NCBI RefSeq assembly: GCF_026427775.1
Contig: NZ_CP044532.1
Span: forward strand, 1,364,001-1,428,000
Reading direction: 5' to 3'
Length of the DNA stretch: 64,000 bases
From: Arthrobacter sp. CDRTa11
GTDB lineage: Bacteria > Actinomycetota > Actinomycetes > Actinomycetales > Micrococcaceae
Below are positions 27,147 through 59,723 of the stretch, in pieces. The position numbers were made by a program, and so were the translations under genes. Every line of letters starts with the position of its first letter. The stretch's first letter is position 1. The notes beneath the pieces were generated by a model. That model saw only the letters and a program-made list of their open reading frames with translations, had not been told where the DNA came from and searched no databases.

Positions 27147-27159
27147 TAGTGTCCCCACC

Positions 27160-27221
27160 CAACTAGGTAGCGCTATCTGACGTTTTGACCCCTCAAAACG
27201 CCAGATAGCGCTACCTAGTTG
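27160..27221. repeat. 62-nt dispersed palindrome, copy A
   Basis: Starts CAACTAGGTAGCGCTA and ends with the complementary TAGCGCTACCTAGTTG; arms of 29 nt around a CCCC centre with a single mismatch (27180/27201). The variable stem triplet is TCT/AGA. It begins 14 nt after purN and contains the TAG stop codon of the DUF559-type gene (27213-27211). It belongs to the same family as copies at 28221, 52712 and 59662. Confidence 0.93.
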
Positions 27222-28155
27222 TTGACCAACCTCGGCTGACAAGCGCAGAGCGGACCTTGGAGACCGCCGCCCGTGCTTCGTTCTCCATGTGACGCTTGGA
27301 TATGCGGACCAGCGTCCAGCCCGCACGGGCGAAATCTTCTTCGCGCGCGATGTCCTTGACGATCTGGGCCGCTTCGGAATGCCCCGCTCCCTCGTACTCA
27401 ACCGCCACCTTTTCTCCCGCATAAGCCAGGTCCGGTTGACGCACTACGCCGCCAGTCAGTTCGACGGGAACGTTCAGTTGCGGTTCGGGCAGGCCGGCGT
27501 TTTCAAGGACCAGCCGGAGCCTCGTTTCCGGGGCGGAGTCGGATCCTACCCGGGCCTGCTCCAGCGCAAGTCGGGCTTTGCGGATGCCGGGAGTTCCTTT
27601 GTGCCTGTCCAGCATGTCCGCGAGATCCTCCAAAGTTGCGTAGGGCTCGGATCGACCCTCAAAGTCGGCTCTGGGCAGCCTCAGCAAATGGTCGGCGACA
27701 ACCGTCAGTTCGTCGATGGTCATCTTCCGCGCACAGTCCAGCCATGTACGCGTGCGGGACGTGATGAAGAGTCCATCCAGTTCGACAATTTCGTCGGCAA
27801 AGAACTGCCCTCGGTGCCCTCGAACCCCTGGGCGACGCATGATGGCTGCCGTATCCGGACGCGAAATGTGAATCAGCGGTTCATCGCTCCCCGGAAGGAA
27901 CCCTGGAAAGCCCCACAACTGGAACGCCGTCGCGTGCGAAGCGGCCGCGAACTTCGTGATGAGCGTGTACGGCCGAATATTTGGTGCCGGTCCGGGGCCC
28001 GCCACGTCGCCCGCCTTTGGCACCCGCATGCCCCGGGTGGGCCGCTGCAGACCTTGGTGACGTAACTGCCGCTTGGTAATTCCGGCGTCGGCCGCTTCTC
28101 TTAAGGTGAACGGGATGGCAGCCAGGGGCTCCGGCAGTGATCTGGGGACTTTCAT
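27211..28155 (-). CDS. AbiEi-like N-domain plus DUF559 (PD-(D/E)XK, Vsr-like) protein
   Basis: 314 residues. The N-terminal part (FTLREAADAGITKRQLRHQG) is a winged-helix of the type seen in AbiEi-like proteins. The C-terminal ~110 residues are a DUF559/Vsr-like nuclease core: SAPETRLRLVL supplies the Glu, RQPDLAYAGEKVAVEYEG the Asp and E-x-E, and a final VRISKRHM strand follows. It could cut DNA, but no target is known; such genes are multicopy in Arthrobacter. It lies between purN and purH, bracketed by 62-nt palindromes A and B, and its last codons and stop (ACT AGG TAG) come from palindrome A. Its wobble bases look less GC-biased than purN or purH. Confidence 0.82.
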   Translation of the reverse strand: MKVPRSLPEPLAAIPFTLREAADAGITKRQLRHQGLQRPTRGMRVPKAGDVAGPGPAPNIRPYTLITKFAAASHATAFQLWGFPGFLPGSDEPLIHISRPDTAAIMRRPGVRGHRGQFFADEIVELDGLFITSRTRTWLDCARKMTIDELTVVADHLLRLPRADFEGRSEPYATLEDLADMLDRHKGTPGIRKARLALEQARVGSDSAPETRLRLVLENAGLPEPQLNVPVELTGGVVRQPDLAYAGEKVAVEYEGAGHSEAAQIVKDIAREEDFARAGWTLVRISKRHMENEARAAVSKVRSALVSRGWSTTR

Positions 28156-28220
28156 CTGCCCATGGTGACAGCTGGGCGAAGATGCCGCTGAAGTTATCCA
28201 CAGGTCCGTATGGGTCGGTA

Positions 28221-28282
28221 CAACTGGGTAGCGCTAAGTGTCGTTTTGGGAGCTCAAAACGACACTTAGCGCTACCTAGTTG
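28221..28282. repeat. 62-nt dispersed palindrome, copy B
   Basis: Starts CAACTGGGTAGCGCTA and ends TAGCGCTACCTAGTTG. The variable stem triplet is AGT on the left and ACT on the right: both arms changed relative to copies A and D, so pairing is kept. It lies 66 nt upstream of the DUF559-type gene and 38 nt after the MFS gene stop. Confidence 0.93.
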
Positions 28283-28294
28283 GGGATGGACTAC

Positions 28295-28319
28295 GGGGAG
28301 GGGAGGGGAGGGGAGGGGG
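28295..28319 (+). repeat. G-quadruplex-type tract (GGGGA)4-GGGGG
   Basis: Five G-runs of four or more separated by single A, ending at the base before the MFS stop codon. Single-nucleotide loops are the most stable class of intramolecular G-quadruplex on the + strand; the MFS mRNA carries the C-rich complement directly after its TAG. Confidence 0.85.
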
Positions 28320-29672
28320 CTACTCGAGCCGGCGCTGCTTGGTCTCTGGCGAGAAGAAGGCCATCCACAGCACTGCAACCAGGACCAGCCCGCCGGCCAG
28401 CGCGAAGGACGTGGCCAGCCCCAGTTCGGGCCAGAAATAGGTGGCAAAGACCAGCGGTCCGAAGCCTGCCCCGAGCCGGGAGAACGTAGACGCCCAGCCG
28501 AAGCCGGTGCCGCGAAGTTCCGTGGGATAGAGCTCGGACACATAGGCGTAGAGCACGGGAATGGCCACTTGCACCACAAAACCGAATACCAGCAGCCAGA
28601 ACACCGCGGCCGTGGGGATGTCCACCACAAACGCCACGATCACCAGGGTCAGTGCGGACAGCGGACCGGTGATGGCCAAGATCCATTTACGGCCCACCCG
28701 TTCCACCAGGAGCGCCGCCACAATCACGCCCAAAAGCCCGACGGCGGCCATGGAGGCCGTGGTCACAAAGGCCTTGTACTCGGCGAACCCGGCCCCAATG
28801 AGGATCCGCGGCATCCACGTCAGCGACAGGTAGTAGACCAGCAGGATACTGAAAAACAGGGACCAGGCAGCCGCGGTGATTTTCCAGTTGAACTGCCACA
28901 CAAGCCGCAGCTGCTGCCAGGCGCTGCCTGCCGACAGCCGCGGAACGGCCTGGGCATCGGGCAGGCTGTACGCGCGTGGCTCCACTCCAGTCGCCGCAAC
29001 GAGCGCGTCGATAACTTTGGCTGCCTCTTCGCGGCGGCCCTTGCGGATGAGGAACAGCGGCGATTCGGGGACACTCCGACGGACCCAGAACACCAACAGG
29101 GCGGGGAGCACCATCACCAGCATGGTCAGGCGCCAGTCGGCGAACGCAGCCACCAGTGCCGCTGAGACAAACCCGCAGAGCGCTGCCCCCACCGGCCACC
29201 AGCCGTCCATGGCCGTGAGTACCTTGCCGCGCTGCTTCCGGGGCGTGAATTCCCCCACCAGGGCATAGTCCACCGGAATGCAGCCGCCCAGTCCGAAGCC
29301 GGCCATAAACCGGAAGGCGCAGAACCAGATGAAGTCGGGGGAGAAGGCGCCCAGGACGGTGAAGAGCGAGAAGATGAGCAGCGTTGCCGTAAACGCCTTC
29401 TTGCGCCCGATGGTGTCAGCGATGGTTCCCCATACAAACGCACCAAGGGCCATGCCAATCAGGTTGGCCGTGCCGATCCAGCCGGCCTCGCCCGGGGTCA
29501 GCGACCAGTGGCTGGAGAGCAGGGGGATCAGGATGCCGTTGAGGGTCACATCCCAGGCGTCGAACATAAAGCCGAGCCCGCCGATCAGAAAGATCCTGCC
29601 CTGGACTTTCCATCGCCACGGCAGTTCCTGGACCACCTGTTCGCCGCTGGGCACAGTGGTGTATGTATTCAT
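28320..29672 (-). CDS. MFS transporter, NiaP/SV2-like
   Basis: 450 residues, twelve transmembrane helices. The N-terminal FMFDAWDVTLNG and the loop DTIGRKKAF carry the MFS signature; RFMAGFGLGGCIPVDYALV, the EFTPRKQRGK loop, and YVSELYPTELRGTGFGWAS resemble the SV2/NiaP and aromatic-acid symporter branch. An organic acid, aromatic compound or nicotinate is possible as substrate; context does not decide. The start ATG at 29672 has a purine-rich GGAGGCCGAG upstream. The gene ends at a G-quadruplex-type tract followed by palindrome B. Confidence 0.88.
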   Translation of the reverse strand: MNTYTTVPSGEQVVQELPWRWKVQGRIFLIGGLGFMFDAWDVTLNGILIPLLSSHWSLTPGEAGWIGTANLIGMALGAFVWGTIADTIGRKKAFTATLLIFSLFTVLGAFSPDFIWFCAFRFMAGFGLGGCIPVDYALVGEFTPRKQRGKVLTAMDGWWPVGAALCGFVSAALVAAFADWRLTMLVMVLPALLVFWVRRSVPESPLFLIRKGRREEAAKVIDALVAATGVEPRAYSLPDAQAVPRLSAGSAWQQLRLVWQFNWKITAAAWSLFFSILLVYYLSLTWMPRILIGAGFAEYKAFVTTASMAAVGLLGVIVAALLVERVGRKWILAITGPLSALTLVIVAFVVDIPTAAVFWLLVFGFVVQVAIPVLYAYVSELYPTELRGTGFGWASTFSRLGAGFGPLVFATYFWPELGLATSFALAGGLVLVAVLWMAFFSPETKQRRLE

Positions 29673-29826
29673 CTCGGCCTCCTGGGAAAACTCTAGCGGG
29701 GCCGGGGAGCGCCCACGCCCGCGCCGTCACAGTGCGGCAGGCAAACGGCGCACCGCCACTTCACGATAAACTGGCCGTATCCCCACCAACCGCGGCGTTG
29801 TTCCGCGAGATAAGACGGAGACTTTT

Positions 29827-31497
29827 GTGAGCTTCACGCAGCTTGACCGTGTTCCCATCCGCCGGGCCCTGATCTCGGTTTACGACAAGACCGGTCTGGA
29901 GGAGCTCGCCAAGGGCCTGCATGCAGCGGGCGTGAAGATCGTATCCACCGGCTCCACGGCCAAGAAGATCGCCGAGGCCGGCATCCCGGTCCAGGAAGTC
30001 GAGGAAGTCACGGGCTCCCCGGAAATGCTAGACGGCCGCGTCAAGACGCTGCATCCGCGCGTGCACGGCGGTATCCTCGCCGACCGCCGCGTCCCGGCAC
30101 ACATGGAAACCCTCGCCGGCATGGAGATCGAAACCTTTGACCTGGTGGTGGTGAACCTCTACCCGTTCGTCGAGACCGTCAAGTCCGGCGCCGCCCCGGA
30201 CGACGTCGTCGAGCAGATCGATATCGGCGGCCCCGCCATGGTCCGTTCGGCTGCAAAGAACCACGCCGCCGTCAGCATCGTTGTTGATCCGGGCTTCTAC
30301 GGCGAGGTCGTCAACGCTGCCGCTGAAGGCGGCTTTGACCTGAAGACCCGACGCCGGCTGGCCGCCAAGGCGTTCGCCCACACCGCCACCTACGACAACG
30401 CCGTGGCCACCTGGACTGCCAGCCAGTTCCTGGATGAAGACGGCGACGGCGTCATCGACTGGCCGGCCTACGCCGGCCTGGCACTGGAACGCTCCGAGGT
30501 CCTCCGGTACGGCGAAAACCCGCACCAGCAGGCGGCCCTCTACGTGGACAAGGCCGCTCCTGCCGGCATCGCGCAGGCGGACCAGCTGCACGGCAAAGCC
30601 ATGAGCTACAACAACTTTGTTGACGCAGACGCCGCCCTCCGTGCCGCCTACGACTTCGTCGAGCCGGCCGTCGCCGTGATCAAGCACGCCAACCCCTGCG
30701 GTGTGGCTGTCGGTGCTGCCGATGCTGAAGATCCGATCGCGGACGCGCACGCCAAGGCCCATGCCTGCGATCCCGTCTCGGCTTTCGGCGGCGTCATCGC
30801 CGCCAACCGCATGGTCACTGCCGGCATGGCACGCACCGTGGCCAACATTTTCACTGAGGTTGTCATCGCCCCCGGCTTCGAGCCGGAAGCCGTGGAGATC
30901 CTGTCCAAGAAGAAGAACATCCGCCTGCTTGCCCTGCCTGAGGGCTACGGCCGCTATCCGGCCGAAATCCGCCAGGTCTCCGGCGGCGTCCTGGTCCAGA
31001 TGTCAGACAAGGTGGACGCCGACGGCGACAACCCGGCTAACTGGACGCTGGCCGCCGGTGCAGCTGCCGACGAGAGGACCCTCGCCGATCTGGCTTTCGC
31101 CTGGACCGCCTGCCGCGCCGCCAAGTCAAACGCGATCCTGCTGGCCTCCGAAGGCGCAGCCGTCGGCATCGGCATGGGCCAGGTTAACCGCCTGGATTCC
31201 TGCAGGCTGGCCGTGGAACGGGCGAACACTTTGGGCGTGAACGTAAGTTCGGATGTTGAGGGAGCAGGCGGAGCCTCCAACACCCAGTCGGACGGTGCAG
31301 CCGAGCGCGCCCGCGGCGCGGTTGCGGCCTCCGACGCCTTCTTCCCGTTCGCTGACGGACTCCAGATCCTGATCGACGCCGGCGTGCGCGCCGTGGTGCA
31401 GCCGGGCGGTTCGGTCCGGGACGAGGAAGTAATTGCGGCGGCGAATGCGGCAGGCGTCAGCATGTACTTCACCGGTGCCCGCCACTTCTTCCACTAG
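29827..31497 (+). CDS. purH: Bifunctional AICAR transformylase/IMP cyclohydrolase
   Basis: Last two steps of IMP synthesis; uses 10-formyl-THF. 556 residues with an N-terminal MGS-like cyclohydrolase ([41 protein letters not shown]) and a C-terminal transformylase ([35 protein letters not shown]). The GTG start at 29827 follows CGGAGAC and begins the usual sequence [16 protein letters not shown] short inverted repeat (CGCGG-7-CCGCG, 29791-29807) is in its leader. A strong terminator follows. Confidence 0.98.
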
Positions 31498-31533
31498 TCG
31501 CCACCGGCTCCCAAGCGCGCCGGGTTAAACGTC

Positions 31534-31577
31534 GACGGCGTCTGTCCCCCTGAGGGGAGAGACGCCGTCGGGCTTTA
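31534..31577 (+). terminator. purH intrinsic terminator
   Basis: GACGGCGTCT (31534-31543) pairs with AGACGCCGTC (31560-31569), with an inner CCCC/GGGG stem and a CTGA loop, followed by GGGCTTT. Confidence 0.88.
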
Positions 31578-31585
31578 AGGGCTGC

Positions 31586-31783
31586 CTAGGAACCAGGTGT
31601 TTGAGCGTCCGCGCCCCGCTGCTTGAGGCGCGGACCCTTCTCCGGAAGCCGGAGCTCCCGGGGCCTGGCACTAGCCATCTTCTGCTGCGTCCAGTACTCG
31701 AGGATCTCCCCTTGCGTCCTGGCCGCTTGGCTGTGGCTGACTGATTCCCCGCCGGGTGAGGAATCCCTAGGCTGTTTCTGCAC
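31586..31783 (-). CDS. Small ORF resembling a protease pro-segment (possible inhibitor or remnant)
   Basis: 65 codons from a GTG at 31783 that overlaps the end of the protease gene by 17 nt. The segment ILEYWTQQKMASARPREL resembles the protease pro-region VAEYWTSERMQNAIPGDV: E-Y-W-T, a Met four residues on, then A-x-P. There is no signal peptide and no clear ribosome binding site. It may be a remnant of a duplicated secreted protein, or a translationally coupled pro-peptide-like inhibitor. The coding assignment is tentative; codon use is compatible with a gene. Confidence 0.45.
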   Translation of the reverse strand: MQKQPRDSSPGGESVSHSQAARTQGEILEYWTQQKMASARPRELRLPEKGPRLKQRGADAQTPGS

Positions 31784-32729
31784 TTGCGTAGGTCTGCTGG
31801 ATAACGGAGCCCCAGTAGGGGCCGTACATAACGGGGGAGCGGCTGTAGCCGTAGCTGTTGATCGAGTTCTGAAGGCCGGTGGCGTCTGAGCCGATGAACC
31901 AGGGGCCGCCGGAGGAGCCGCCGGTCATGTCGCAGGAAATGCCCTGCGTGTTGAACGGGTTGACGGTGTCGTCGAAGGCCGCGCCCGTGCAGCTCTTGAG
32001 GCTCTCGCCATTGAACGGCTTTGCGGCCGGGTAGCCGTAGGACTTATAGGTGAGGCCCCGTGCGGCGTTGAACTCGACTCCCGATTCCTGGACAACGTCT
32101 GCCAGGTACTGCCCGTTGAGCTGGTTCATCACTGCAAAACCGGTGTCGTACTGGATGTCGCCGTTCGAGCTCCACTGGGTTGGTGCGTAAACGTTACGCG
32201 CGGTCCATTTCCCGTAGGGCGCCACGCCGTTTTCGTATTTGGGTGCAAACATGAAATTGGTGGCGAAGGCGCCAGGGCCCTCGTTGAGGCAGTGTCCTGC
32301 GGTGGCTACGGTGCTCCTGTTCGTGGAAACGACTGCGTTGCCGGAGCAAACATAGTTGGCTCCGCCGAGGGTAAAGAACACCTTGCCGATGTGGTCCACC
32401 GGGGACTCGCTGACGGCAATGGTGGTTCTGCCTTTGGCCGCCCTCACCTGCGAATTAGTGCCTTTCTCCACGGACGCTGCGCTTGACGAATTGCCGCGTT
32501 CGAGTGCTTTCGCGGCCAGGACGTCACCGGGGATTGCGTTTTGCATGCGCTCGCTTGTCCAGTACTCGGCCACTCCCGTGCTGTCCACCGTTGCGCTTGT
32601 CACCGAAGGGGCCTGCTTGTCGTCCGAGGCAGCAGGCGCGGCCGTGGCTCCACCGGCGGCACCAAGTGCCAGCAGGGCGGCTGCAGAGAGGCTCAAAAGG
32701 CTGGTAGCCAGAGACCTGGTGCGTGTCAT
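31767..32729 (-). CDS. Secreted trypsin-like serine protease with pro-segment
   Basis: 320 residues. A signal peptide of about 30 residues (LSLSAAALLALGAAGGATAA) precedes a pro-region with the motif EYWTSERMQNAIP, and then an S1-type catalytic domain: His in VATAGHCLN, Asp in IQYDTGFAV and Ser in TGGSSGGPWF. Cys pairs (YVCSG/GHC and SCTG/ISC) suggest disulphides. The active enzyme should be extracellular. The ATG at 32729 is chosen: AGGAC lies upstream and the signal peptide starts there; the open frame continues to 32807. A small ORF with a similar EYWT motif follows at once. Confidence 0.92.
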   Translation of the reverse strand: MTRTRSLATSLLSLSAAALLALGAAGGATAAPAASDDKQAPSVTSATVDSTGVAEYWTSERMQNAIPGDVLAAKALERGNSSSAASVEKGTNSQVRAAKGRTTIAVSESPVDHIGKVFFTLGGANYVCSGNAVVSTNRSTVATAGHCLNEGPGAFATNFMFAPKYENGVAPYGKWTARNVYAPTQWSSNGDIQYDTGFAVMNQLNGQYLADVVQESGVEFNAARGLTYKSYGYPAAKPFNGESLKSCTGAAFDDTVNPFNTQGISCDMTGGSSGGPWFIGSDATGLQNSINSYGYSRSPVMYGPYWGSVIQQTYASAETA

Positions 32730-32911
32730 TTGTGTCCTGTCCAAACGGTGGGGGAGGGCTCCGGTGACGCCCGCCACGTGCACCATGAATTTATCCGGAT
32801 ATGACACTTTTGTAAATGAATTTTCCTCCTTTGTTGCACTCGTGGCGGGTCTCTGTTAAGTGATGTTTCCTGCCCTGGTTCGCTGAATCCGCTGGTCCGC
32901 TGACCGCAGCA

Positions 32912-33754
32912 TCAGGAGACGCTTGCCGCGGCGGGGCGGTGTCCCTTCTTGGCAAGCTGGATCTGTTCGTAGACGTGATGGCGCAATTCTGTGAACCGTG
33001 GCAGTGCCCGGGTGTTGAGCTGGTCCCGCTCCTGAGGAAGGTTGATGACGATGTCCTCCTGGATCACGGTGGGAGAGCTGGAAAGGATAATGACGCGTTC
33101 GCCGAGATAGACGGATTCGTCGATATCGTGGGTGACGAACAGGATAGTGACGCCGAGTTTCTTCCAGACGCTGCGGATGAGGTCTTCGAGGTCAGCGCGG
33201 GTCTGGGCGTCCACCGCCGCGAACGGTTCGTCCATGAGGAGTACTTCGGGCTGGTAGGCGACGGCGCGGGCAATCGCCACACGCTGCTGCATGCCGCCGG
33301 AGAGTTGCCATGGATAGGACTGGGGGACGTGGGCCAGCCCCACTGCTTCCAGGGCCTCGTCAACAATGCGGTCGCGCTCGGCCTTGGGAACACGCTGGTT
33401 TTTTAGTGGCAACTCCACATTCTGCCGCACCCGCATCCACGGGAAGAGGGAGCGGCCGTATTCCTGGAAGACCACCGCCATCTTCTTCGGCGGGCCACTG
33501 ACCCGCGTGCCGTTCAGGAGGACTTCACCCTCAGTGGGGGCCATCAGCCCTGAAATGCATTTGAGCAGGGTGGTCTTGCCGGAGCCTGAGGGGCCCACCA
33601 GGCAGGCCAGCTCGCCCGGACGCAGGTCGAAGGTGAGGTTCCGAACCGCCTCGACGTCGCCGCCGTCGGTCTTGTAGACCTTCTTCAGACCTCGGACCGA
33701 CAGCATGGGCTGGTCCTCTTGGCCGGATTTGCCCGGTGTTTCGTTATCCAGCAT
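32912..33754 (-). CDS. ABC importer ATPase, SsuB/TauB type
   Basis: 280 residues, cytoplasmic ATPase of a nitrate/sulfonate/taurine-type importer. Walker A GPSGSGKTT, Q-loop VVFQEYGRSLFPW, signature LSGGMQQRVAIARA, Walker B VLLMDEPFAAVD and the H-loop VTHDIDES are all intact. It is the last gene of a four-gene operon and overlaps the preceding permease by 11 nt. Substrate unknown: SsuB-like proteins serve sulfonates, nitrate, pyrimidines and other small organic compounds. No desulfonation enzyme is nearby. Confidence 0.94.
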   Translation of the reverse strand: MLDNETPGKSGQEDQPMLSVRGLKKVYKTDGGDVEAVRNLTFDLRPGELACLVGPSGSGKTTLLKCISGLMAPTEGEVLLNGTRVSGPPKKMAVVFQEYGRSLFPWMRVRQNVELPLKNQRVPKAERDRIVDEALEAVGLAHVPQSYPWQLSGGMQQRVAIARAVAYQPEVLLMDEPFAAVDAQTRADLEDLIRSVWKKLGVTILFVTHDIDESVYLGERVIILSSSPTVIQEDIVINLPQERDQLNTRALPRFTELRHHVYEQIQLAKKGHRPAAASVS

Positions 33755-34517
33755 TTTCTACCTCTTTCTGACCGTGGTACCAGCGCAATACGCGGCGCTC
33801 GCTCCACTGGAAGATGAATGACAGTGCCACGCCGATCAGGCCGAGGACGATGATGCCGGACCACATCTCGGGGATGGCGAAGGAGCGCTGGAACTGCACA
33901 ATGGTGAAGCCCAGTCCGGAAGACGAGGCGAACATCTCCGAGATGACCATCAGGATCAGGCCAATAGACAGGCACTGACGGACCCCGGCCATGATCTGGG
34001 GGCTGGCCGAGGGGAGAACCAGGTACCGCACGCGGGCCCAGCCCGTAATGCCGTACGTGTGGCTGGAATCGGAAAGCACCGAATCAACGGCACGGACGCC
34101 TTCGATGGTGTTCAGCAGCACCGGCCAGATGCAGCCGGAGATGATGACCACCACTTTCATCGAATCCGTGATTCCCATCAGCAACATGAGTACGGGCACC
34201 AGCACGGGCGGCGGGATAGCGCGGAAGAATTCCAGTGTCGGCTCCAGTAAGGACCGGAGCCATCTGACGGATCCGATCACCAGCCCGGCGGCGACGCCGA
34301 TCAGGATTGCCGCAGTTACCCCGGTGATCAACCTGCCGAGGCTGGGGAGGACATCAGAGAGGATCCGTTCGCCAAACCAGACCTCCACAAACGTATCAGC
34401 CAGGATCCCGGGCCTGGGAAAGAAAAAGTTGGGCCTCCCCAGTGTCAACGCCCACCAGAGGAAGATCAGCAGGAGCGGCAGCCCCACTATGTAGCCAAAC
34501 GCCTTCAACCAGCTCAT
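33744..34517 (-). CDS. ABC importer permease, SsuC type (second)
   Basis: 257 residues, six hydrophobic helices, BPD_transp_1 fold. The cytoplasmic EAA-like loop is around SHTYGITGWARVRYLVLPSASPQIMAGVRQ. It overlaps the first permease by 4 nt and the ATPase by 11 nt, so all three are translationally coupled. Two different permease subunits suggest a heterodimeric channel, which is less common in this family, where one gene usually suffices. Confidence 0.93.
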   Translation of the reverse strand: MSWLKAFGYIVGLPLLLIFLWWALTLGRPNFFFPRPGILADTFVEVWFGERILSDVLPSLGRLITGVTAAILIGVAAGLVIGSVRWLRSLLEPTLEFFRAIPPPVLVPVLMLLMGITDSMKVVVIISGCIWPVLLNTIEGVRAVDSVLSDSSHTYGITGWARVRYLVLPSASPQIMAGVRQCLSIGLILMVISEMFASSSGLGFTIVQFQRSFAIPEMWSGIIVLGLIGVALSFIFQWSERRVLRWYHGQKEVENAG

Positions 34518-35344
34518 ACGATCACCTCAGAACGGACTGACGAGTGCCAGGAAAGGGTCTTCTTTTCAATGAACCGCATCAGCAGGTTGATCAATACTCC
34601 GATCAGGCCCGTTGCCAATACCAACGCGTACATGCCGGAGATGGCGCCGCCCGATTGAGCCAAGGCGATTTCACGGCCAAGTCCAGGGGAGCCGATGATC
34701 AGTTCCGCCGTGATCGCCAAAATAAGCGCGACGGCGGCGGCCAGCCTGACCCCTGTCATCAGGTACGGCAAAGCCGTGGGGAACACCACGTACCGGATCC
34801 GCGCCCAGCGTCCCAGCCCGTAAGATTTGGCAGTGTTGTTGGCAACCATGTCGATGTCTGCCACCCCGTAAAGGACCTGGATAAAGACCTGCCAGAAGGC
34901 CGCATAAACGATCAGCATCAATGAAGATTCGATTTTTACGCCAAACATCAGTACTGCCAGCGGGATCAGCGCCACCGATGGGATGGGCCGCAGGAACTCC
35001 ACCGTGGAGTTCGTGGCTTTCCTCAGGAAGGCGGATGAGCCGATGAGAAAGCCAAGTACGACGGCGGCAATCACTGCAATCAGCAGGCCGAGGAACCAGG
35101 CAAGCATGGTTTCACCCACGCTCACCCAGAAGGCCGTCAGCCCGAGGGCCCGCAAGAGTGCTGCAATAACCTCGCTTGCGGGCGGGAGGAAGCGCGGTTC
35201 AACGATCCCCAACCGCGGTATCAGCTCCCAGGTCAGCAGAAATCCGATGATTCCCGCCAGACCCAGGAATTGCTGGACTGGCCACTTGGGCCGGGAGAAC
35301 AGCGATCCCCGGCCCGCAGCGGCCACGCCGCTCTTGCCGTTCAT
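34514..35344 (-). CDS. ABC importer permease, SsuC type (first)
   Basis: 276 residues with six helices and the EAA-like loop AKSYGLGRWARIRYVVFPTALPYLMTGVRL. It forms a probable heterodimer with the following permease. The start at 35344 is 15 nt after the substrate-binding protein gene. The N-terminal ~20 residues are basic and cytoplasmic. Confidence 0.93.
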   Translation of the reverse strand: MNGKSGVAAAGRGSLFSRPKWPVQQFLGLAGIIGFLLTWELIPRLGIVEPRFLPPASEVIAALLRALGLTAFWVSVGETMLAWFLGLLIAVIAAVVLGFLIGSSAFLRKATNSTVEFLRPIPSVALIPLAVLMFGVKIESSLMLIVYAAFWQVFIQVLYGVADIDMVANNTAKSYGLGRWARIRYVVFPTALPYLMTGVRLAAAVALILAITAELIIGSPGLGREIALAQSGGAISGMYALVLATGLIGVLINLLMRFIEKKTLSWHSSVRSEVIV

Positions 35345-35359
35345 TTTGCCTGATTTCGC

Positions 35360-36349: not shown

Positions 36350-36446
36350 CTTGTTCAACTCTTCCTTGAGTTCCATCACTGGCGCGGCGGCGCTCTTGCG
36401 CCTGACGCGGGGCGTGTGACTCAGCACACACCCGGATGTATCTATG

Positions 36447-36529: not shown

Positions 36530-36532
36530 TAA

Positions 36533-39387
<2,855 letters not shown>

Positions 39388-48775: not shown

Positions 48776-48875
48776 GCCTGCCAACTATAGGTCACTTTGC
48801 ACATCCCTGAGATGCGGCTCACACCCCTACGCTGGACGAGGGAAACCGACAACTACTTCTGAATGGACGTCAACG

Positions 48876-52156: not shown

Positions 52157-52162
52157 CCTGTT

Positions 52163-52684
52163 CTACGGAGCGTGCAGTTCCCGATGGGCACGGGCCAGCT
52201 CCACGTAGCGGGCCGCGTTGCCCTTAACGCCCTCGAACTCCTCGTCGCTGAGTTCCCGCCGCACCTTGGCGGGGACTCCGGCCACGAGTGAGCGGGGCGG
52301 AACCACTGTCCCTTCCAGGACAACGGCGCCGGCCGCCACGAGGGAGCCGGCGCCGATGACCGCCCCGTTCAGGACGGTGGCGCCCATGCCGATCAGGCAG
52401 TCATCCTCCACCGTGCAGCCATGGACGACGGCGGCGTGGCCCACGCTGACCCGGGCGCCGACGCTGCAGGGGAACCCGGGGTCCGCATGGAGGACCACGT
52501 TGTCCTGCAGGTTGCTGCCCGCGCCCACGCTGATTGCTGCGGTGTCAGCCCGAACCGAGACGCCATAAAAGGCGCTGGAGTCCGCTGCAAGGCTGGCGTT
52601 GCCGATGATCGACGCCGTGGGGGCAATAAAGGCGGAGTCGTGGACGGCCGGAGTGTTCCCGGCAAAATCGTAAAGAGGAGCCAT
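52163..52684 (-). CDS. Gamma-carbonic anhydrase family protein
   Basis: 173 residues, left-handed beta helix of hexapeptide repeats (IIGNAS, VGAGSNLQDNVVLHAD, IGMGATVLNGAVIGAGSLVAAGA). The three metal His are visible: LHAD, then GHAAVVHG (two). Trimeric and cytoplasmic by family; enzymatic carbonic anhydrase activity is not certain for short bacterial members such as PaaY/YrdA. The start is 28 nt from palindrome C and the gene follows the methyltransferase on the same strand. Confidence 0.92.
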   Translation of the reverse strand: MAPLYDFAGNTPAVHDSAFIAPTASIIGNASLAADSSAFYGVSVRADTAAISVGAGSNLQDNVVLHADPGFPCSVGARVSVGHAAVVHGCTVEDDCLIGMGATVLNGAVIGAGSLVAAGAVVLEGTVVPPRSLVAGVPAKVRRELSDEEFEGVKGNAARYVELARAHRELHAP

Positions 52685-52711
52685 GCCCCCACCTTAGGAC
52701 ACCCACTGGCC

Positions 52712-52773
52712 CAACTAAGTAGCGCTAACTGTCGTTTTGAGGGCTCATAACGACAGTTATCGCTACCTAGTGG
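52712..52773. repeat. 62-nt dispersed palindrome, copy C
   Basis: Starts CAACTAAGTAGCGCTA. The variable stem triplet is ACT on the left and AGT on the right, another compensated pair. Four mismatches in the arms, the most decayed copy. It contains the TAG stop of the methyltransferase gene (52765-52763) in the same position as copy A holds the stop of the DUF559-type gene. Confidence 0.9.
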
Positions 52774-53449
52774 GGGAAGAAGGGGTGCGGAGGATGAGGA
52801 ACTGGTAGTGCTGGGTCCACGCCCCTGCGCCGGGACCTGATTCCGGGCCTTCGCCCTCCGGCCACGTGATAAATTCCTCGATCACGCCGTGTCGGCCAAA
52901 GACATCGCGTACCGTCCCGTCTGTTCGCCGGCTGAAGAACCGGCGGGGTTCGACGTCGTCCGCGGGGTTGAACAGCTCCTCGTCACCTCCGGACCAGAGG
53001 CCGACGGCGATGGGCGAGCCGGGTGCCGAGACCCGCACCAGCTCCCGCAGCACGCCGTCAACGTCGCTGTCGGGGATATGCACCAGTGTGCTCATGCACC
53101 ACACCGCGGGGAACACACCATTAGGGAAGGGCAGCCGCCGCGCGCTCGCGACCGAGACGTCCAGGCCCTTCGCCCTGGCCAGCCGGACGTTTCCCTCGGC
53201 GAGATCCACGCCTGTGTAGTGAATGCCTGCCTGGACAAACTTCAGGCCGTCAATGCCTGTGCCGCAACCGACGTCAAGGACGTCGTGGCGGCCTTCGGCC
53301 TTGAGGGTGCTGATAAAGCGTTCGCGCTGTTCGGCCCTCCGCGGGTCCATTGGATCGTCAATGCCGGAGGCCGCGAGGCGGTTATAGAACTCCGCCAGGC
53401 GCTGCTCGCTGCCGGGTTCCTCCGTCCACGGATCCACCACGCTGTTCAT
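52763..53449 (-). CDS. Class I SAM-dependent methyltransferase
   Basis: 228 residues. Motif I VLDVGCGTGIDG near residue 57, then the acidic YTGVDLAEGN and LPFPNGVFPAVWCMSTLVHI, the Methyltransf_11 pattern. Substrate unknown. ATG 53449 begins 4 nt after the purU stop, so the two are in one operon on the - strand. The last codons and TAG stop are inside palindrome C: the gene ends Pro-Thr-Arg with ACT AGG TAG, as does the DUF559-type gene with palindrome A. Confidence 0.9.
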   Translation of the reverse strand: MNSVVDPWTEEPGSEQRLAEFYNRLAASGIDDPMDPRRAEQRERFISTLKAEGRHDVLDVGCGTGIDGLKFVQAGIHYTGVDLAEGNVRLARAKGLDVSVASARRLPFPNGVFPAVWCMSTLVHIPDSDVDGVLRELVRVSAPGSPIAVGLWSGGDEELFNPADDVEPRRFFSRRTDGTVRDVFGRHGVIEEFITWPEGEGPESGPGAGAWTQHYQFLILRTPSSPTR

Positions 53450-53453
53450 GCTG

Positions 53454-54314
53454 TCAGTTGAAGACCACGGTGCGGTTGCCGTCCAGCAAGACCCTGTGCT
53501 CGGCATGCCATTGGACGGCCTGGGCCAGGGTGCGGCCCTCCACGTCACGGCCCATCTGCACGAACTGCTCCGGGGTGCGTGCGTGATCCACCCGGATCAC
53601 TTCCTGTTCGATGATGGGTCCCTCGTCCAGGGCTGCTGTGACATAGTGCGCGGTGGCGCCGATCAGCTTCACACCCCGGGCGTGGGCCTGGTGGTACGGC
53701 TTGGCGCCTTTGAAGGACGGCAGGAACGAGTGGTGGATGTTGATGGCCTTGCCGGTAAGTTCCGTGCACAGTTCATCGGAAATGATCTGCATGTAGCGGG
53801 CAAGGACCGTCAGCTGCACATCGTGTTCGGCCATGATGGCACGCAGCTTGTCTTCGGCCTGGGCCTTGGTGTCCGGCGTGACCGGGATGTAGTGGAACGG
53901 AACCCCATAGAACTCGGCCAGCCCCGCCAGGTCCTGGTGGTTGGAAACGATCGCAGGGATCTCAATAGGCAGGGTGCCGGAGCGCTGCTGGAACAGGATG
54001 TCGTTGAGGCAGTGCGCCGACGTGCTCGCCATCAGCAGGGTCCGCACTTTCTGGCCCACGGAGTTCAGGCTCCACTGCATCCCGAAGGACTGGGCCACCG
54101 GCTCGAGGGAGGCCTGGAGTTCGGCGCGGGAGGCTGACGTCCTGACTTCCACGCGCATAAAAAAGTTGCCTGTTGCGGGGCTGCCGTATTGCTGCGAATC
54201 GGTAATGTTGCAGCCCGCCTCCAGCAGCGCGCCGGCCACTGCGTGGACAATTCCGGGGCGGTCGGGGCAGGACAGGGTTACTACGTACGCTTGGTTCAGG
54301 TCCTCTTCAGTCAC
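53454..54314 (-). CDS. purU: Formyltetrahydrofolate deformylase
   Basis: Releases formate from 10-formyl-THF, balancing one-carbon units. 286 residues: an N-terminal ACT domain (VVTLSCPDRPGIVHAVAGAL) and a formyltransferase-like domain with LARYMQIIS, NIHHSFLPSFKGAKPYHQA and GATAHYVTAALDEGPIIEQ including the catalytic Asn, His and Asp. The GTG at 54314 is chosen because the ACT domain begins there; the frame is open to 54635 across the riboswitch region. Divergent from glyA. Confidence 0.96.
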   Translation of the reverse strand: MTEEDLNQAYVVTLSCPDRPGIVHAVAGALLEAGCNITDSQQYGSPATGNFFMRVEVRTSASRAELQASLEPVAQSFGMQWSLNSVGQKVRTLLMASTSAHCLNDILFQQRSGTLPIEIPAIVSNHQDLAGLAEFYGVPFHYIPVTPDTKAQAEDKLRAIMAEHDVQLTVLARYMQIISDELCTELTGKAINIHHSFLPSFKGAKPYHQAHARGVKLIGATAHYVTAALDEGPIIEQEVIRVDHARTPEQFVQMGRDVEGRTLAQAVQWHAEHRVLLDGNRTVVFN

Positions 54315-54373
54315 GCGTACCAGCCTACCCGCGCCGGCCGCCGTGTTTCGTGGCCGTCTTTGGTAGTCTTGTG

Positions 54374-54452
54374 GGGTCGCAACTGGCGTTGGGTGGCTAA
54401 CCACCAGGGAGCGGCAATCACGAAGACCACGGATCGTACGCCTGGGCCGAGG
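54374..54452 (+). promoter_or_regulatory. ZTP/ZMP riboswitch (pfl motif) upstream of glyA
   Basis: The + strand carries the pfl pattern: GGGTCGCAACTGGCGTT, a GGGTGGC..AACCACC stem with the conserved CAGGGAGC, a variable linker, and the 3' pseudoknot block CGCCTGGGCC. Known members sense the folate-stress alarmone ZTP/ZMP and switch on purine and one-carbon genes, and glyA is a usual target. A CCTTGATG / CATCAAAGG inverted repeat downstream (about 54482-54538) may be part of the expression platform. Confidence 0.85.
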
Positions 54453-54597
54453 GTCATGTTTTGCCGGACTTAGCTGCAGGCTCCTTGATGCAGCGCCTTC
54501 CTGCGCACTTATGCGCCCTGTCATCAAAGGGGTGCTGTGGTGCGCCAGCCGGTAGCCTGACCTTAGCAGTGCCCGTATCCCTAGCCAGGAGTTCTTC

Positions 54598-55896
54598 GTG
54601 ACTACAACAGCCACCACAACAGCCGCAGTCAGCAACCAGTCGCTGGCCGAGCTCGACCCCGAAATCGCCGCAGTCCTCGACCAGGAACTTGGCCGTCAGC
54701 GCGGCACCCTGGAAATGATCGCGTCCGAAAACTTCGCTCCGCGGGCCGTGATGGAAGCCCAGGGCTCCGTCCTGACCAACAAGTACGCCGAGGGCTACCC
54801 GGGCCGCCGCTACTACGGTGGCTGCGAATATGTTGATGTTGCCGAGCAGCTGGCCATCGACCGCGTCAAGGCCCTCTTCGGCGCCGAGTACGCCAACGTC
54901 CAGCCGCACTCCGGTGCCCAGGCCAACGCCGCGGCCCTCTCCGCCATGATCACTCCCGGCGACAAGATCCTTGGCCTGTCCCTGGCCCACGGCGGCCACC
55001 TGACCCACGGCATGAAGCTGAACTTCTCCGGCAAGCTCTACCAGGTTGCCGCCTACCAGGTTGAAGAAGACAACTTCCGGGTGGACATGGACAAGCTGCG
55101 CGAGCAGGCCATCGCCGAGAAGCCGCAGGTCATCATCGCCGGCTGGTCCGCCTACCCCCGCCACCTTGACTTCGCAGCCTTCCGCAGCATCGCCGATGAA
55201 GTGGGCGCGCTGCTCTGGACCGACATGGCGCACTTCGCCGGACTGGTGGCAGCAGGCCTGCACCCAAGCCCGGTGCCGCACTCCGACGTCGTCACCTCCA
55301 CCGTGCACAAGACCCTGGCCGGACCGCGTTCCGGCGTTATCCTGGCGAAGCAGGAGTGGGCCAAGAAGCTGAACTCGAACGTGTTCCCGGGCCAGCAGGG
55401 CGGCCCGCTGATGCACGTCATCGCTGCCAAGGCTGTGGCCTTTAAGATCGCCGGCACCGCTGAATTCAAGGAGCGCCAGGAGCGCGTGCTCGAAGGTGCC
55501 AAGATCATCGCCGACCGCCTCAACCAGGCCGATGTCGCCGATGCCGGCGTCTCCGTCCTCACCGGCGGCACTGACGTGCACCTGGTCCTCGTTGACCTGC
55601 GCAACTCCCAGCTGGACGGCCAGCAGGCCGAGGACCTCCTGCACTCCGTGGGTATCACCGTCAACCGCAACGCCGTGCCGTTCGACCCCCGCCCGCCGAT
55701 GGTCACCTCCGGGCTCCGCATCGGCACCCCCGCCCTGGCCACCCGCGGCTTCGGCGCCGAGGAGTTCACCGAAGTGGCGGACATCATCGCCACCGCGCTG
55801 AAGACCGGTGCGGCAACGGACGTGGACGCACTCCAGGCCCGCGTGGACAAGCTCGCCGCAGACTTCCCGCTCTACCCGCAGCACGAGCAGTGGTAA
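54598..55896 (+). CDS. glyA: Serine hydroxymethyltransferase
   Basis: PLP enzyme converting serine and THF to glycine and 5,10-methylene-THF. 432 residues with the characteristic [40 protein letters not shown], and the PLP-Lys region [16 protein letters not shown]. The GTG at 54598 follows CAGGAG. It is controlled by the upstream ZTP riboswitch, and folD follows after 8 nt, so the two make a one-carbon operon. Confidence 0.98.
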
Positions 55897-55904
55897 ACCC
55901 GTCC

Positions 55905-56816
55905 ATGACCCAGACCGCGAAGATCCTTGACGGCAAGGCAGCCGCTGCAGCCATCAAATCCGAGCTGGCTGACCGTGTGGCGGCCCTGAAAACCCGTGGC
56001 GTTACCCCTGGCATCGCCACGGTGCTCGTGGGCGCTGACCCTGCCTCCCAGCTGTATGTGTCCATGAAGCACAAGCAGTCCATGGAAATCGGGATGAACT
56101 CGATCCAGCGTGAGCTGCCGGCAGATGCCACCCAGGCGCAGGTTGAGGCCCTCATTGATGACCTCAATGCGGACCCCGCCTGCCACGGTTACATCGTGCA
56201 GCTGCCGCTGCCCAAGCACCTGGACACCGACGCCATCCTTGAGCGGATTGACCCCGCCAAGGACGCCGACGGCCTGCATCCGACCAACCTTGGCCGGCTG
56301 GTGCTCAATGTCAACGGCGAGATCACCTCACCGCTGCCGTGCACGCCCCGCGGCGTCATCGAACTCCTGGAGCGCAACGGCTACAGCCTGGCGGGCAAGC
56401 ATGTGGTGGTGGTGGGCCGTGGCGTCACGATCGGCCGCTCGATCGGTCTGCTGCTCACCCGGCGGGCCGTGAACGCCACCGTGACCCTGACGCACACCGG
56501 GACCAAGAACCTCTCGGAGCTGCTGCGGCAGGCGGACGTCATTGTGGGCGCGGCAGGTGCCAAGCACATCGTCAAGGCAGCGGACGTGAAGCCTGGCGCA
56601 GCCCTGCTGGACGTCGGTGTCACCCGCGAAACCGACCCCGAGACGGGCAAGAGCAAGGTCCAGGGCGACATCGATCCGGCTGCTGCCGAGGTGGCCGGGT
56701 GGATTTCGCCCAACCCCGGCGGCGTCGGACCCATGACCGTGGCCCTGCTGATGACCAACGTGGTGGAAGCCGCGGAACGCCAAGTGGCACAGAAAAGCGG
56801 CTCGGGCATCGCCTAG
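55905..56816 (+). CDS. folD: Methylenetetrahydrofolate dehydrogenase/cyclohydrolase
   Basis: Interconverts 5,10-methylene-, methenyl- and 10-formyl-THF. 303 residues with the active Lys in [33 protein letters not shown] and [14 protein letters not shown] (NADP loop), and [18 protein letters not shown] 55905 lies 8 nt after glyA. A strong terminator follows. With glyA, purU, purN and purH in the same window, it supplies and balances formyl-THF for purines. Confidence 0.97.
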
Positions 56817-56838
56817 CACTGGGTAAGAACTGTAACGC

Positions 56839-56892
56839 CCGACGGCGGCGCTGCACCTTTCACGGAAGGTGCGGCGCCGCCGTCGGACTTTT
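56839..56892 (+). terminator. glyA-folD terminator
   Basis: A near-perfect hairpin: CCGACGGCGGCGC (56839 on) pairs with GCGCCGCCGTCGG (ending 56886), with an inner GCACCTT/AAGGTGC stem, followed by ACTTTT. Confidence 0.92.
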
Positions 56893-56973
56893 AACCGCCC
56901 GCGCTGTTCAGCCTCACGTGAACGTTCACTCAAAGCCCTTCCGCATTCCAGAGTGCTCCACTAGTCTGCTGAG

Positions 56974-57948
56974 GTGCACAATGAAGCCATCCTCTCCTCC
57001 AATACGTCAGCCGGCCCCATGAAGCAGCAAGCGGTGATTGCAGCGGAAAACCTGAGGAAGACGTACGGGGATCTGGCCGCCGTCGATGGCATTTCCTTCA
57101 GCGTTCTGGCGGGGGAGTCCTTCGGGCTGCTGGGCCCCAACGGCGCCGGCAAGTCCACCACCATGAAAATGATCGGCGGTGTCACGCAGCGCACCTCCGG
57201 GACGTTGAGCATCATGGGCCTGGATCCGGACAGCCACGGGCCCGAGGTCCGGGCGCACCTCGGGGTGGTGCCGCAGCAGGACAATCTGGACGAGGAACTG
57301 CGGGTGCGGGAGAACCTGCTGGTTTACGGCCGCTACTTTGGTTTGCCCATGAGCTACCTGAAGCCCAAAGCCGACGAGCTGCTGGAGTTTGCCCAGCTCA
57401 CGGACAAGGCGAAGTCCAAGGTGGATGCCCTTTCAGGCGGCATGAAGCGCCGCCTGACCATCGCCCGATCGTTGATAAATGAGCCGCGGATCCTGCTGCT
57501 GGACGAACCCACCACCGGGCTGGATCCGCAGGCCCGGCATATCCTGTGGGACCGGCTGTTCCGTCTCAAGGAGCAGGGCGTCACGCTGATCCTCACCACG
57601 CATTACATGGACGAGGCCGAGCAGCTGTGCGACCGGCTGATTGTTGTGGACAAGGGCCGGATTATGGCTGAAGGCTCGCCTGCCCAGCTGATCCGGGAAC
57701 ATTCCACCCGGGAGGTCCTGGAGTTGCGGTTCGGCTCCGAGCGCAACTCCACCATTGGCCCGGAGCTGAAGGGAATCGGCGAACGGCTTGAGTCGCTGCC
57801 GGACCGGGTGTTGATTTACGCGCACGACGGCGAGGCGGCCCTTGAGCAGGTGGCGTCCCGCGGCCTGCGGCCACTGACTTCGTTGGTGCGCAGGTCCTCG
57901 CTGGAGGACGTGTTCCTCCGGCTCACCGGCAGGAGCCTCGTTGAGTGA
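56974..57948 (+). CDS. ABC-2 exporter ATPase (DrrA-like)
   Basis: 324 residues. Walker A GPNGAGKST, Q-loop VPQQDNL, signature LSGGMKRRLTIARS, Walker B ILLLDEPTTGLD and H-loop TTHYMDEAE, with a C-terminal DrrA-type extension. It drives the two ABC-2 permeases that follow, probably as a multidrug or lipid exporter. Start is uncertain: the GTG at 56974 gives the full frame, but a methionine 15 codons later (57019) is closer to the first conserved strand; neither has a good ribosome binding site. Overlaps the next gene by 8 nt. Confidence 0.93.
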   Translation: MHNEAILSSNTSAGPMKQQAVIAAENLRKTYGDLAAVDGISFSVLAGESFGLLGPNGAGKSTTMKMIGGVTQRTSGTLSIMGLDPDSHGPEVRAHLGVVPQQDNLDEELRVRENLLVYGRYFGLPMSYLKPKADELLEFAQLTDKAKSKVDALSGGMKRRLTIARSLINEPRILLLDEPTTGLDPQARHILWDRLFRLKEQGVTLILTTHYMDEAEQLCDRLIVVDKGRIMAEGSPAQLIREHSTREVLELRFGSERNSTIGPELKGIGERLESLPDRVLIYAHDGEAALEQVASRGLRPLTSLVRRSSLEDVFLRLTGRSLVE

Positions 57949-58813
57949 GTCATCGGGTTCCACCGGAACTGCCCGTCCCCCCGGCCTGACCGCCACCGTC
58001 CGGGCTCACAGCCCGGAGGTCTCCGCAGCCAAGGCCCGGAGATGGGGTGCCTTCTACTATGCCGAGCAGGTGATCCGGGTGTTGTGGGGGTATGGCTGGT
58101 CCATCCTGATGTACAGCGTGGGCCAGCCAGTGGCCTACCTGTTCGCGATGGGGGTGGGCCTGGCAACCCTCGTGGAAGCCGAAAGCGAGGCTTTCGGCGG
58201 GGTCAGCTACCTGGCCTTCATCGCCCCTGCGCTCCTGGTGTCCGCGGCCGTCATGACGGCGGCCAACGAGTTCACCTTCCCGGTGATGGCCGGCTTCAAG
58301 TGGCGCCGGACCTACTACGGTCCGCACGCCTCGCCGCTGACACCGGAGCAGATCGCGGCCGGACACATCATTGCCGTGACGCTGCGTTTCCTGGTGCAGT
58401 CGGCCATCTATTTTGTTGCCGTGGCGCTATTTGGAGCGTCCCCCGGTGGCTGGGGGTGGGTCAGCGTGCTGGTGGCAACTGTGGCAGGGCTGTCCTTCGG
58501 ATTGCCCCTGATGGCCTACTCGGCGTCGCTCAAGGAGGACAAGGGACAGTTCGCCCTGGTCATGCGGTTCATCGTGATGCCATTGTTCCTGTTCTCTGGT
58601 ACCTTCTTCCCCCTGGACACCCTTCCGCTGGCCGTTCGTTGGATCGGCTGGATCTCTCCCATCTGGCACGGCACTGAGCTGGGCCGGGTCTTCACGTACG
58701 GCTACCAGGAACCACCGCTGCTTACCGTTGTGCACATTGTGGTCCTGGTGGCGCTCGCCGTGCTGGGCTGGATCCTCACCAAGCAGCAGTTCGTCAAAAG
58801 GATGGGTCAATGA
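57941..58813 (+). CDS. ABC-2 exporter permease (DrrB-like), first
   Basis: 290 residues with six hydrophobic helices (FIAPALLVSAAVMTAANEF, FLVQSAIYFVAVALFG and others) and the ABC-2 pattern LFLFSGTFFPLDTLP and WISPIWHGTELGR. TTG 57941 is the most likely start: AGGAG lies about 5 nt upstream; the overlap with the ATPase indicates coupling. It pairs with the next permease. Confidence 0.92.
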   Translation: MSESSGSTGTARPPGLTATVRAHSPEVSAAKARRWGAFYYAEQVIRVLWGYGWSILMYSVGQPVAYLFAMGVGLATLVEAESEAFGGVSYLAFIAPALLVSAAVMTAANEFTFPVMAGFKWRRTYYGPHASPLTPEQIAAGHIIAVTLRFLVQSAIYFVAVALFGASPGGWGWVSVLVATVAGLSFGLPLMAYSASLKEDKGQFALVMRFIVMPLFLFSGTFFPLDTLPLAVRWIGWISPIWHGTELGRVFTYGYQEPPLLTVVHIVVLVALAVLGWILTKQQFVKRMGQ

Positions 58814-59643
58814 GCGTCCTCACCGGTGGCCACAGCGTCACCGAAGACGCGCGCAACAGAAGGTTCGGGCCGCTGTATTCCCGCAATTCCAAAGCGGTGA
58901 TCTCACGTGGCCTGATGGCCACCAAAAGCAGCAACTGGCTGGTGATGCTCTCCGGCTTCTTCGAGCCCGTGCTCTTCCTGATCTCGATGGGAGTCGGCCT
59001 CGGGCCCATCGTAGGGGCGGTGCAGGGGCCGGGCGGTGAAGAGATCAGCTACGCCGCCTACATCGCACCGGCACTGCTGGCTGTCTCCGCCATGAACGGA
59101 GCGGTCTACGACTCCACGTGGAACGTCTTCTTCAAGATGAACTTCGCCAAGCTGTACCAGGGGATGCTCTATACCTCCCTGGGACCGCTGGACGTTGCCA
59201 TGGGCGAGATCTTCCTGGCCCTCCTGCGCGGCGCCCTGTATGCCACGGGTTTCACCGCTGTGTTGGGCATAATGGGCCTGATTACCACGCCCTGGGCCAT
59301 CCTGATGATTCCGGCATCGCTGCTGATCGCTTTTGGATTCGCCAGCATGGGCATGGGCATCACAAGCTTCCTGAAGACGTTCCAGCAGATGGACTGGATC
59401 AACTTCATCATGCTGCCCATGTTCCTGTTCAGCGCCACGTTCTATCCGCTGAGCGTCTACCCCCAGGCCATCCAGTGGCTCATCCAGGCCATGCCGCTCT
59501 GGCACGGCGTGGAGTTGCTGCGGCAGATCAGCGTGGGTACGTTCACCCCGGCCACGGCCATCCACATCGGCTACTACCTGGTAATGACCGCGCTTGGCAT
59601 GCTGCTGACCACGGCCCGGCTGCGGAAACTGTTCCTCAAGTAA
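58810..59643 (+). CDS. ABC-2 exporter permease (DrrB-like), second
   Basis: 277 residues, six helices, with the same FLFSATFYPLSVYPQAIQW and PLWHGVELLRQ blocks as its partner. Overlaps the first permease as ATGA. Two dissimilar half-channels indicate a heterodimeric exporter. Palindrome D starts 19 nt after the TAA. Confidence 0.93.
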   Translation: MSVLTGGHSVTEDARNRRFGPLYSRNSKAVISRGLMATKSSNWLVMLSGFFEPVLFLISMGVGLGPIVGAVQGPGGEEISYAAYIAPALLAVSAMNGAVYDSTWNVFFKMNFAKLYQGMLYTSLGPLDVAMGEIFLALLRGALYATGFTAVLGIMGLITTPWAILMIPASLLIAFGFASMGMGITSFLKTFQQMDWINFIMLPMFLFSATFYPLSVYPQAIQWLIQAMPLWHGVELLRQISVGTFTPATAIHIGYYLVMTALGMLLTTARLRKLFLK

Positions 59644-59661
59644 CCCGCCGCTCTCCTTCCC

Positions 59662-59723
59662 CAACTAGGTAGCCCTATCTGTCGTTATGGGGGCCGAAAA
59701 CGACAGATAGCGCTACCCAGTTG
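59662..59723. repeat. 62-nt dispersed palindrome, copy D
   Basis: Starts CAACTAGGTAGCCCTA and ends TAGCGCTACCCAGTTG, with the variable triplet TCT/AGA as in copy A. Mismatches are at 59667, 59674 and 59687. Located between the exporter operon and a small membrane protein gene. Confidence 0.92.

Follow-up and report, generated by a model that had tools for sequence, protein, structure and literature searches.

The locus and its nuclease cassette

The stretch analysed here (the window) comprises 64,000 nucleotides of the single 5.16-Mb contig of Arthrobacter sp. CDRTa11 (G000:C1:1364001-1428000; G and L numbers denote genomes and loci). It carries four copies, A to D, of a 62-nt palindrome (family I), and a gene for a predicted two-part nuclease sits between copies A and B, which form the two ends of a cassette (Table 1). 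An earlier reading of the window, made from its letters alone (the sequence-only reading), had described the palindromes and implied that there is no linked enzyme, and this last point is overturned by the presence of the nuclease gene. The neighbouring genes are a formyltransferase gene (Formyl_trans_N; called purN here) and a transporter gene of the MFS type (MFS_1), and the cassette stands alone between genes, outside any intron or intein. In its layout a palindrome comes first, followed by about 63 nt of leader that includes a DnaA-box sequence, an open reading frame of about 312 codons and a palindrome lying over the stop codon.

Table 1. Features of the window (positions are those of the 64,000-nt stretch)
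Feature	Position	Strand	Remark
Nuclease gene, 314 codons	27211..28155	-	AbiEi-like part ~3-202; Vsr/I-Bth0305I-like nuclease part ~205-310 (predicted)
Palindrome A + 2 nt each side	27158..27223	.	downstream palindrome of nuclease cassette; overlaps gene stop codon
Exact DnaA-box sequence TTATCCACA	28194..28202	.	leader, 39-47 nt upstream of nuclease start codon
Palindrome B + 2 nt each side	28219..28284	.	upstream palindrome of nuclease cassette
Palindrome C + 2 nt each side	52710..52775	.	solitary (solo) copy
Palindrome D + 2 nt each side	59660..59725	.	solo copy; site occupied or empty among relatives
Solo of second gene's palindrome family (CGAACTGGCAGC...)	4041..4097	.	cognate of nuclease gene G000:C1:1492309-1493199

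AbiEi profiles match 20/20 proteins of the nuclease family, and the closest predicted fold of the C-terminal domain is that of the I-Bth0305I-type homing endonucleases and Vsr, of which the predicted nuclease fold and the conserved acidic and histidine residues are present. The MTES_1575 profile is matched by all 20 family members at E-values up to 0.01, and the protein P0001 stays below the Pfam gathering cut-offs of MTES_1575 (26.5 versus 38.2 bits) and DUF559 (19.5 versus 20.6 bits). NCBIfam gives no match for four proteins, and the few annotated family members seen are labelled as hypothetical or DUF559 proteins. No AbiEii (DUF1814) toxin gene is found beside the nuclease gene in the window, the stretch covered for this point. 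A phage origin is rejected, as a search of the phage collection with the composite palindrome gives no match, no PHROG profile matches any of the 20 members and the protein matches one phage record, at 34%.

A protein search of 61 genomes of the genus gives 33 close relatives (at least 66% identity, near full length, own gene included) as well as partial ones, and 30 of these 33 were examined. When palindromes are detected by pairing alone, they are found on both sides of the gene in 25 loci, upstream alone in four (one of which, L245, stops at a contig edge) and on neither side in one; the covariance model described below also detects palindromes beside most close relatives. The two palindromes of a cassette agree with each other, while their interiors differ among species (distance 0.096 within and 0.387 between cassettes; reached in 0 of 10000 permutations). 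In the 20 upstream palindromes compared, both-side changes occur in 20 of 31 pairs, and the paired cells and the covariation exceed all 500 shuffles.

As judged from the flanks, 22 of the 30 cassettes are at purN and the rest are at two or more other places; the cassettes of this genome and of G004 are inverted relative to the other purN-linked copies in the comparison. When considering the region downstream of purN in 30 genomes of the genus, palindromes are present where the nuclease gene directly follows purN, and the 62-nt family is absent where the transporter gene directly follows, a weak match in L206 being another palindrome. Gaps between purN and the transporter gene without the cassette (L213, L219, L221, L228 and L230) contain a longer repeat that resembles an imperfect palindrome and has GACGCGC at its ends.

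The palindrome unit and its pairing

The four window copies are found exactly where the sequence-only reading had placed them; each is 62 nt long and folds into a near-perfect hairpin. The core pattern, with up to three mismatches, is matched eight times in the window, once for each arm of the four copies, and never in 100 dinucleotide-preserving shuffles. The compensated stem triplets, TCT/AGA in A and D, AGT/ACT in B and ACT/AGT in C, are as had been claimed. The shared outer arms are exact in A alone, with B, C and D differing by one, three and two bases, respectively, and the inner CGTTTTG/CAAAACG is exact in A and B but not in C and D. The length of exactly 62 nt applies to 37 of the 39 places found in the genome, whereas the conserved unit is one of 66 nt, CC-62-GG: C is found at -1 and at -2 in 36/39 places each, and G at +1 in 37/39 and at +2 in 35/39. 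Palindrome A ends with TT and palindrome B starts with TA, in place of these conserved CC/GG flanks. Beyond the 66 nt the sequence is not conserved among the 39 places, and pairing does not exceed that of shuffles.

In the alignment of 31 copies both-side changes occur in 15 of 29 pairs, with a covariation score that is reached by none of 500 column shuffles and is also above all slid controls; the pairs 14/49 and 18/45 flip together. The residual mismatches had been described as mostly G·U-compatible, which does not hold: the 37 copies of 62 nt have 42 A-C, 28 G-T and 77 other mismatches, and the 19 tandem copies, read along transcription, have 24, 13 and 42, respectively. RNA-level selection, as judged by G-U wobble, is thus unsupported, A-C mismatches being not fewer than G-T mismatches. 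The palindromes have no match in Rfam.

In the window, the Rfam scan gives a single riboswitch match (54369-54454, + strand), to the ZMP/ZTP riboswitch and just over the gathering score, ahead of a serine hydroxymethyltransferase gene. Hairpins that have CGACGGCG ends recur at 31525-31578 of the window and at comparable places in G004, G015, G079, L125 and L128, and these are probably ordinary terminators.

Distribution in the genome and in the genus

The family is dispersed over at least 39 places of the genome and is not confined to the four copies of the window, as found by a pattern search and by a covariance model built from 31 copies. The model gives 77 strand-wise matches, corresponding to 39 places, with a length of 62 nt at 37, 60 nt at one and 67 nt at another; the number of places is a lower bound because 150 of the 544 first-look candidates were scored. 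None of these places is inside a predicted gene, some overlapping gene ends, when using genes from a simple gene finder of our own, trained on the window. The neighbouring genes are convergent at 17 places, tandem at 19 and divergent at three, compared with six, 21 and ten, respectively, among the 37 gaps in the window that are 40 nt or longer, such that the palindromes are enriched in convergent gaps (Fisher p 0.013); at least one gene 3' end adjoins 36/39 places. The origin and terminus halves hold 16 and 23 places, respectively, with no bias (p 0.34). A void of 1.18 Mb is present among the 39 places (about 2.035-3.218 Mb of G000:C1), opposite the contig ends, with p of about 0.001 for the largest gap.

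In a search of 59 genomes, with up to 91 candidates scored per genome, the model has matches in 37/37 genomes of the genus (own genome included) and in 1/22 others, with a marginal E-value of 0.002. By named loci the family is placed in Arthrobacter and Pseudarthrobacter. A table of REP (repetitive extragenic palindrome) counts in the RepRanger report lists Arthrobacter livingstonensis (PMC12306157). The composite palindrome also matches three plasmid records, including that of the conjugative plasmid pAD51 (NZ_CP014572.1), in which a palindrome (L431, 1501-1558) is located shortly after aceA and before aceB.

Turnover of sites, and genomes with and without the nuclease gene

The same site is found occupied or empty when different species are compared. 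At site D, considering 50 of the 51 genomes that have the preceding gene, a family I palindrome is present in 12, another palindrome (GGAGTTTTTGTACAGC...) in five and neither in 33, as counted by eye (a script recovers 10 of the 12). The GGAGTTTTTGTACAGC... palindromes are downstream of the same gene in G008, G022, G032, G060 and G069; different families therefore occupy one site in different species. At site C of G004, CCCCAACTA is joined to CCTAGTTGGGG, and the outer ends of the palindrome alone remain, as after loss of the hairpin. No target-site duplication is recognised when comparing occupied and empty sites C and D across species, the flanks being too diverged for this. Covariation above controls, copies throughout the genome and sites that are occupied in some species and empty in others thus leave standing the REP-like behaviour that the sequence-only reading had proposed, now for a family that extends throughout the genus.

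Solo D is nearer to the element of its own genome than to those of others (0.147 versus 0.246, p 0.005, eight genomes, phylogeny ignored). The median number of strand-wise matches is 76 in the 19 genomes with a clade I nuclease gene and 35 in the 17 without it (p 2.7e-5, phylogeny ignored; G032, with a fragment, is left out and G026, with a stop codon, is counted as having the gene). When the best palindrome of each genome is considered, pairing is better with the gene than without it (17 versus 10 genomes, p 0.0008, phylogeny ignored; L074 and L089 are dropped, leaving 27 of the 29 loci). Nuclease remnants adjoin palindromes in G016, G026 and G032. The sequence-only reading had left it at folded forms being selected or regenerated; the lower perfection without an intact gene and the likeness of solo and resident copies favour regeneration or spread by the nuclease, as far as can be judged from sequence comparison.

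Nuclease clades have their own palindrome families

The nucleases of clade II (44-48% identity) have a different palindrome (ATCGATTGCTCCG...), present on both sides in 10/12 loci. The genome also has a second nuclease gene (Table 1), whose palindrome belongs to a third family (GCGAACTGGCAGC..., mostly 63 nt), with a copy upstream, a degenerate half downstream and solos elsewhere. In a tree of 96 proteins, family I is found in one fully supported clade (29/30 of its rows) and family II in another (12/13); this is a quick tree with long-branch warnings, and the label 'I' of L386 is a text-pattern artefact that is disregarded.

Matches to the nuclease family are found in 79/99 genomes of the order (E up to 1e-10) and in 79/118 genomes of the class (E up to 1e-12). 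Outside the genus 49 loci were compared, one per genome and each the best match of its genome among the matches listed; some palindrome is nearby in 35 of them, and palindromes are on both sides in 17. In all of these 17 the pair is matched in sequence, whereas an equal score is reached in 6/272 cross-locus pairings. As a control, 621 genes with lengths of 600-1300 nt, taken from 80 named loci, include one with a matched pair, and that gene is flanked by two family I palindromes; in the genus control any palindrome is present on both sides at 3/596 genes, one of which is a nuclease cassette. Solo copies of its own palindrome are present in G133 (five read), and three further genomes of its genus give no match to the pattern of that palindrome.

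A DnaA-box sequence in the leader

The exact DnaA-box sequence (reverse TGTGGATAA) is found at about -42 to -48 in 65/73 nuclease leaders: 30/30 of clade I, 11/12 of clade II and 24/31 others, or 63/71 distinct loci, as two were fetched twice. In the window and 384 kb of relatives it occurs six times, by coordinates each time in a nuclease leader. Three exact boxes are found in the 8 kb from both ends of the contig, whose first open reading frame is presumed to be dnaA. Outside the genus, the exact box is present in 4/22 leaders and CTGTGGA is found upstream in 25/49. The box is also seen in leaders of palindrome-free nuclease genes, such as L232 and L277, and it thus belongs to the nuclease family and not to the palindromes. 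DnaA may bind this leader box, as its sequence suggests.

Comparison with known systems

The association of the palindromes, as cognate partners, with this AbiEi-like/Vsr-I-Bth0305I-like nuclease family has good support and is regarded as nearly certain. The arrangement resembles the REP/REPIN-RAYT (TnpA_REP) systems, in which extragenic palindromes are dispersed, close copies flank a mostly single-copy gene that is inherited in place, and several enzyme-palindrome pairs can coexist per genome. Here too the cognate repeats flank the enzyme gene and are dispersed in extragenic space. The enzyme, however, is not of the Y1 (HUH) type, and because of this difference the system falls outside the definition of REP/RAYT, while being like it in working. 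The earlier statement that no RAYT is seen is borne out for the whole genome: there are 0 matches to Y1_Tnp (PF01797) in this genome, the one genome of the genus searched for it, with 5/14 control genomes positive, and RAYT/IS200 is rejected as mobiliser for this genome. The palindromes differ as well, being single hairpins of 62-66 nt, whereas REPs are units of 20-40 nt arranged as inverted doublets. REPs are described as being 20-40 bp long with GTAG or CGTC at one end (PMC3733652); here GTAG occurs inside the arm in many copies, neither terminal nor fixed, its first base being G in 11/20 species and C in 8/20.

In the IS200/IS605 elements and their palindrome-ended short derivatives, too, a single gene is bounded by a hairpin on either side and there are short solo forms, but their enzyme has an unrelated fold, and here the two ends are near-identical palindromes. 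The I-Bth0305I-type endonucleases and Vsr are closest to the predicted fold of the C-terminal domain, but the present gene forms an intergenic cassette and has an AbiEi-like domain and cognate palindromes. The predicted N-terminal fold and the profile are shared with the AbiEi antitoxins of the AbiE type IV toxin-antitoxin systems and with Rv2827c, which regulate their own promoters by binding to inverted repeats (PMC7319586), but here this domain is fused to a nuclease domain. Further literature for comparison is available (PMC3116915; PMC12907096). In the open literature no report was found that links such nucleases to palindromes, subscription papers and preprints being outside the search. 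We could find no described element class to which either the enzyme or the palindromes can be assigned, and because of this the system would be categorically new; if the analogy with RAYT is counted as one kind, it is a variant of that kind.

Alternative explanations

It is possible that the palindromes are bidirectional transcription terminators or stabilisers of mRNA 3' ends under host selection, two of which merely insulate the nuclease gene. The excess in convergent gaps, the adjoining gene 3' ends and the high stability of the hairpins as RNA are in agreement with this, but there is no T-rich run after the hairpin up to +20, where G predominates at the first two positions, A-C mismatches are not fewer than G-T mismatches along transcription, and a terminator needs neither a fixed length of 62 nt nor clade-specific, two-sided matching at one gene family. 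This explanation is considered distinctly improbable. A role as a defence or toxin-antitoxin factor, with the palindromes as operators or decoys for the AbiEi-like domain, seems more improbable still. The AbiEi profile matches and the promoter binding of AbiEi and Rv2827c would fit, but the gene is flanked in the window by formyltransferase and transporter genes and not by an AbiEii-type toxin gene; the palindrome that overlaps the stop codon and the solos by the 3' ends of other genes do not resemble operators, and some homologues have no palindromes.

The palindromes could also be the ends of an old insertion element, the solos having arisen by end-end recombination and the arms agreeing through template-switch correction of quasi-palindromes, with the nuclease uninvolved. 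The inverted cassettes, the outer ends that remain at site C of G004, expected of hairpin deletion, and the broken nuclease genes beside palindromes can be explained in this way, but genomes in which the nuclease gene is missing or broken have poorer pairing and fewer copies, and dozens of solos, which match the type of the resident element, stand against one or two complete elements. Such a passive origin is thought unlikely. From these sequence comparisons it is rather probable that the palindromes owe their spread or maintenance to the nuclease. Several observations weigh against it. Palindromes are missing at 32 of the 96 homologues in the tree, including genes of a 960-nt group that is also represented once in this genome, and at one of the two clade II copies of G012. 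The best Foldseek E-value is 0.0055, with none at or below 0.001. In the pairs 6/57 and 26/37 the two positions change with hardly any dependence on each other, and further pair types in the species set are no more numerous than in shuffles (208/500). The copy-number and pairing tests, besides ignoring phylogeny, rely on a model that was tuned to this genome. Many copies can be present without a clade I gene, as in G006 and G016, with 71 strand-wise matches each. All 31 aligned copies differ from one another, which, together with the lack of a recognised target duplication, indicates that movement has not been recent in this genome.

Proposed mechanism and implications

Together the cassette and the scattered palindromes look like undescribed mobile DNA with a dedicated enzyme, best read, by analogy, as a REP/RAYT-like system built on an unrelated nuclease. 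Starting from the observed cassette layout, clade-family pairing, covariation, occupied and empty sites and DnaA-box sequence, and from the predicted folds, it can be proposed that the palindrome is recognised by the AbiEi-like domain, perhaps as a hairpin or cruciform formed at a passing replication fork, and that the nuclease nicks it. Repair or rejoining would then copy one arm onto the other, by which the arms stay complementary, or, alternatively, leave a copy of the palindrome at a new site. The gene would mostly be inherited in place while the solos, which are scattered and mostly adjoin gene 3' ends, turn over, as for RAYT and REPIN. More tentatively, and with somewhat less than even confidence, a selfish DNA present throughout the class Actinomycetes can be envisaged, in which a Vsr-fold nuclease of the homing type, having an AbiEi-like domain that binds repeats and being turned on through DnaA at the start of replication, acts on its own extruded hairpin palindrome, restores one arm by means of the other and seeds copies at gene ends, each clade driving its own palindromes, which decay after loss of the nuclease.

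The nuclease family is common, and the cognate palindromes offer a testable substrate for it; repeats that would otherwise be filed as REP-like are now placed next to their likely enzyme. If the proposal is true, there have been two or more origins of REP-like systems, based on unrelated enzymes, and the DnaA box ahead of the nuclease gene would tie a selfish element to replication.
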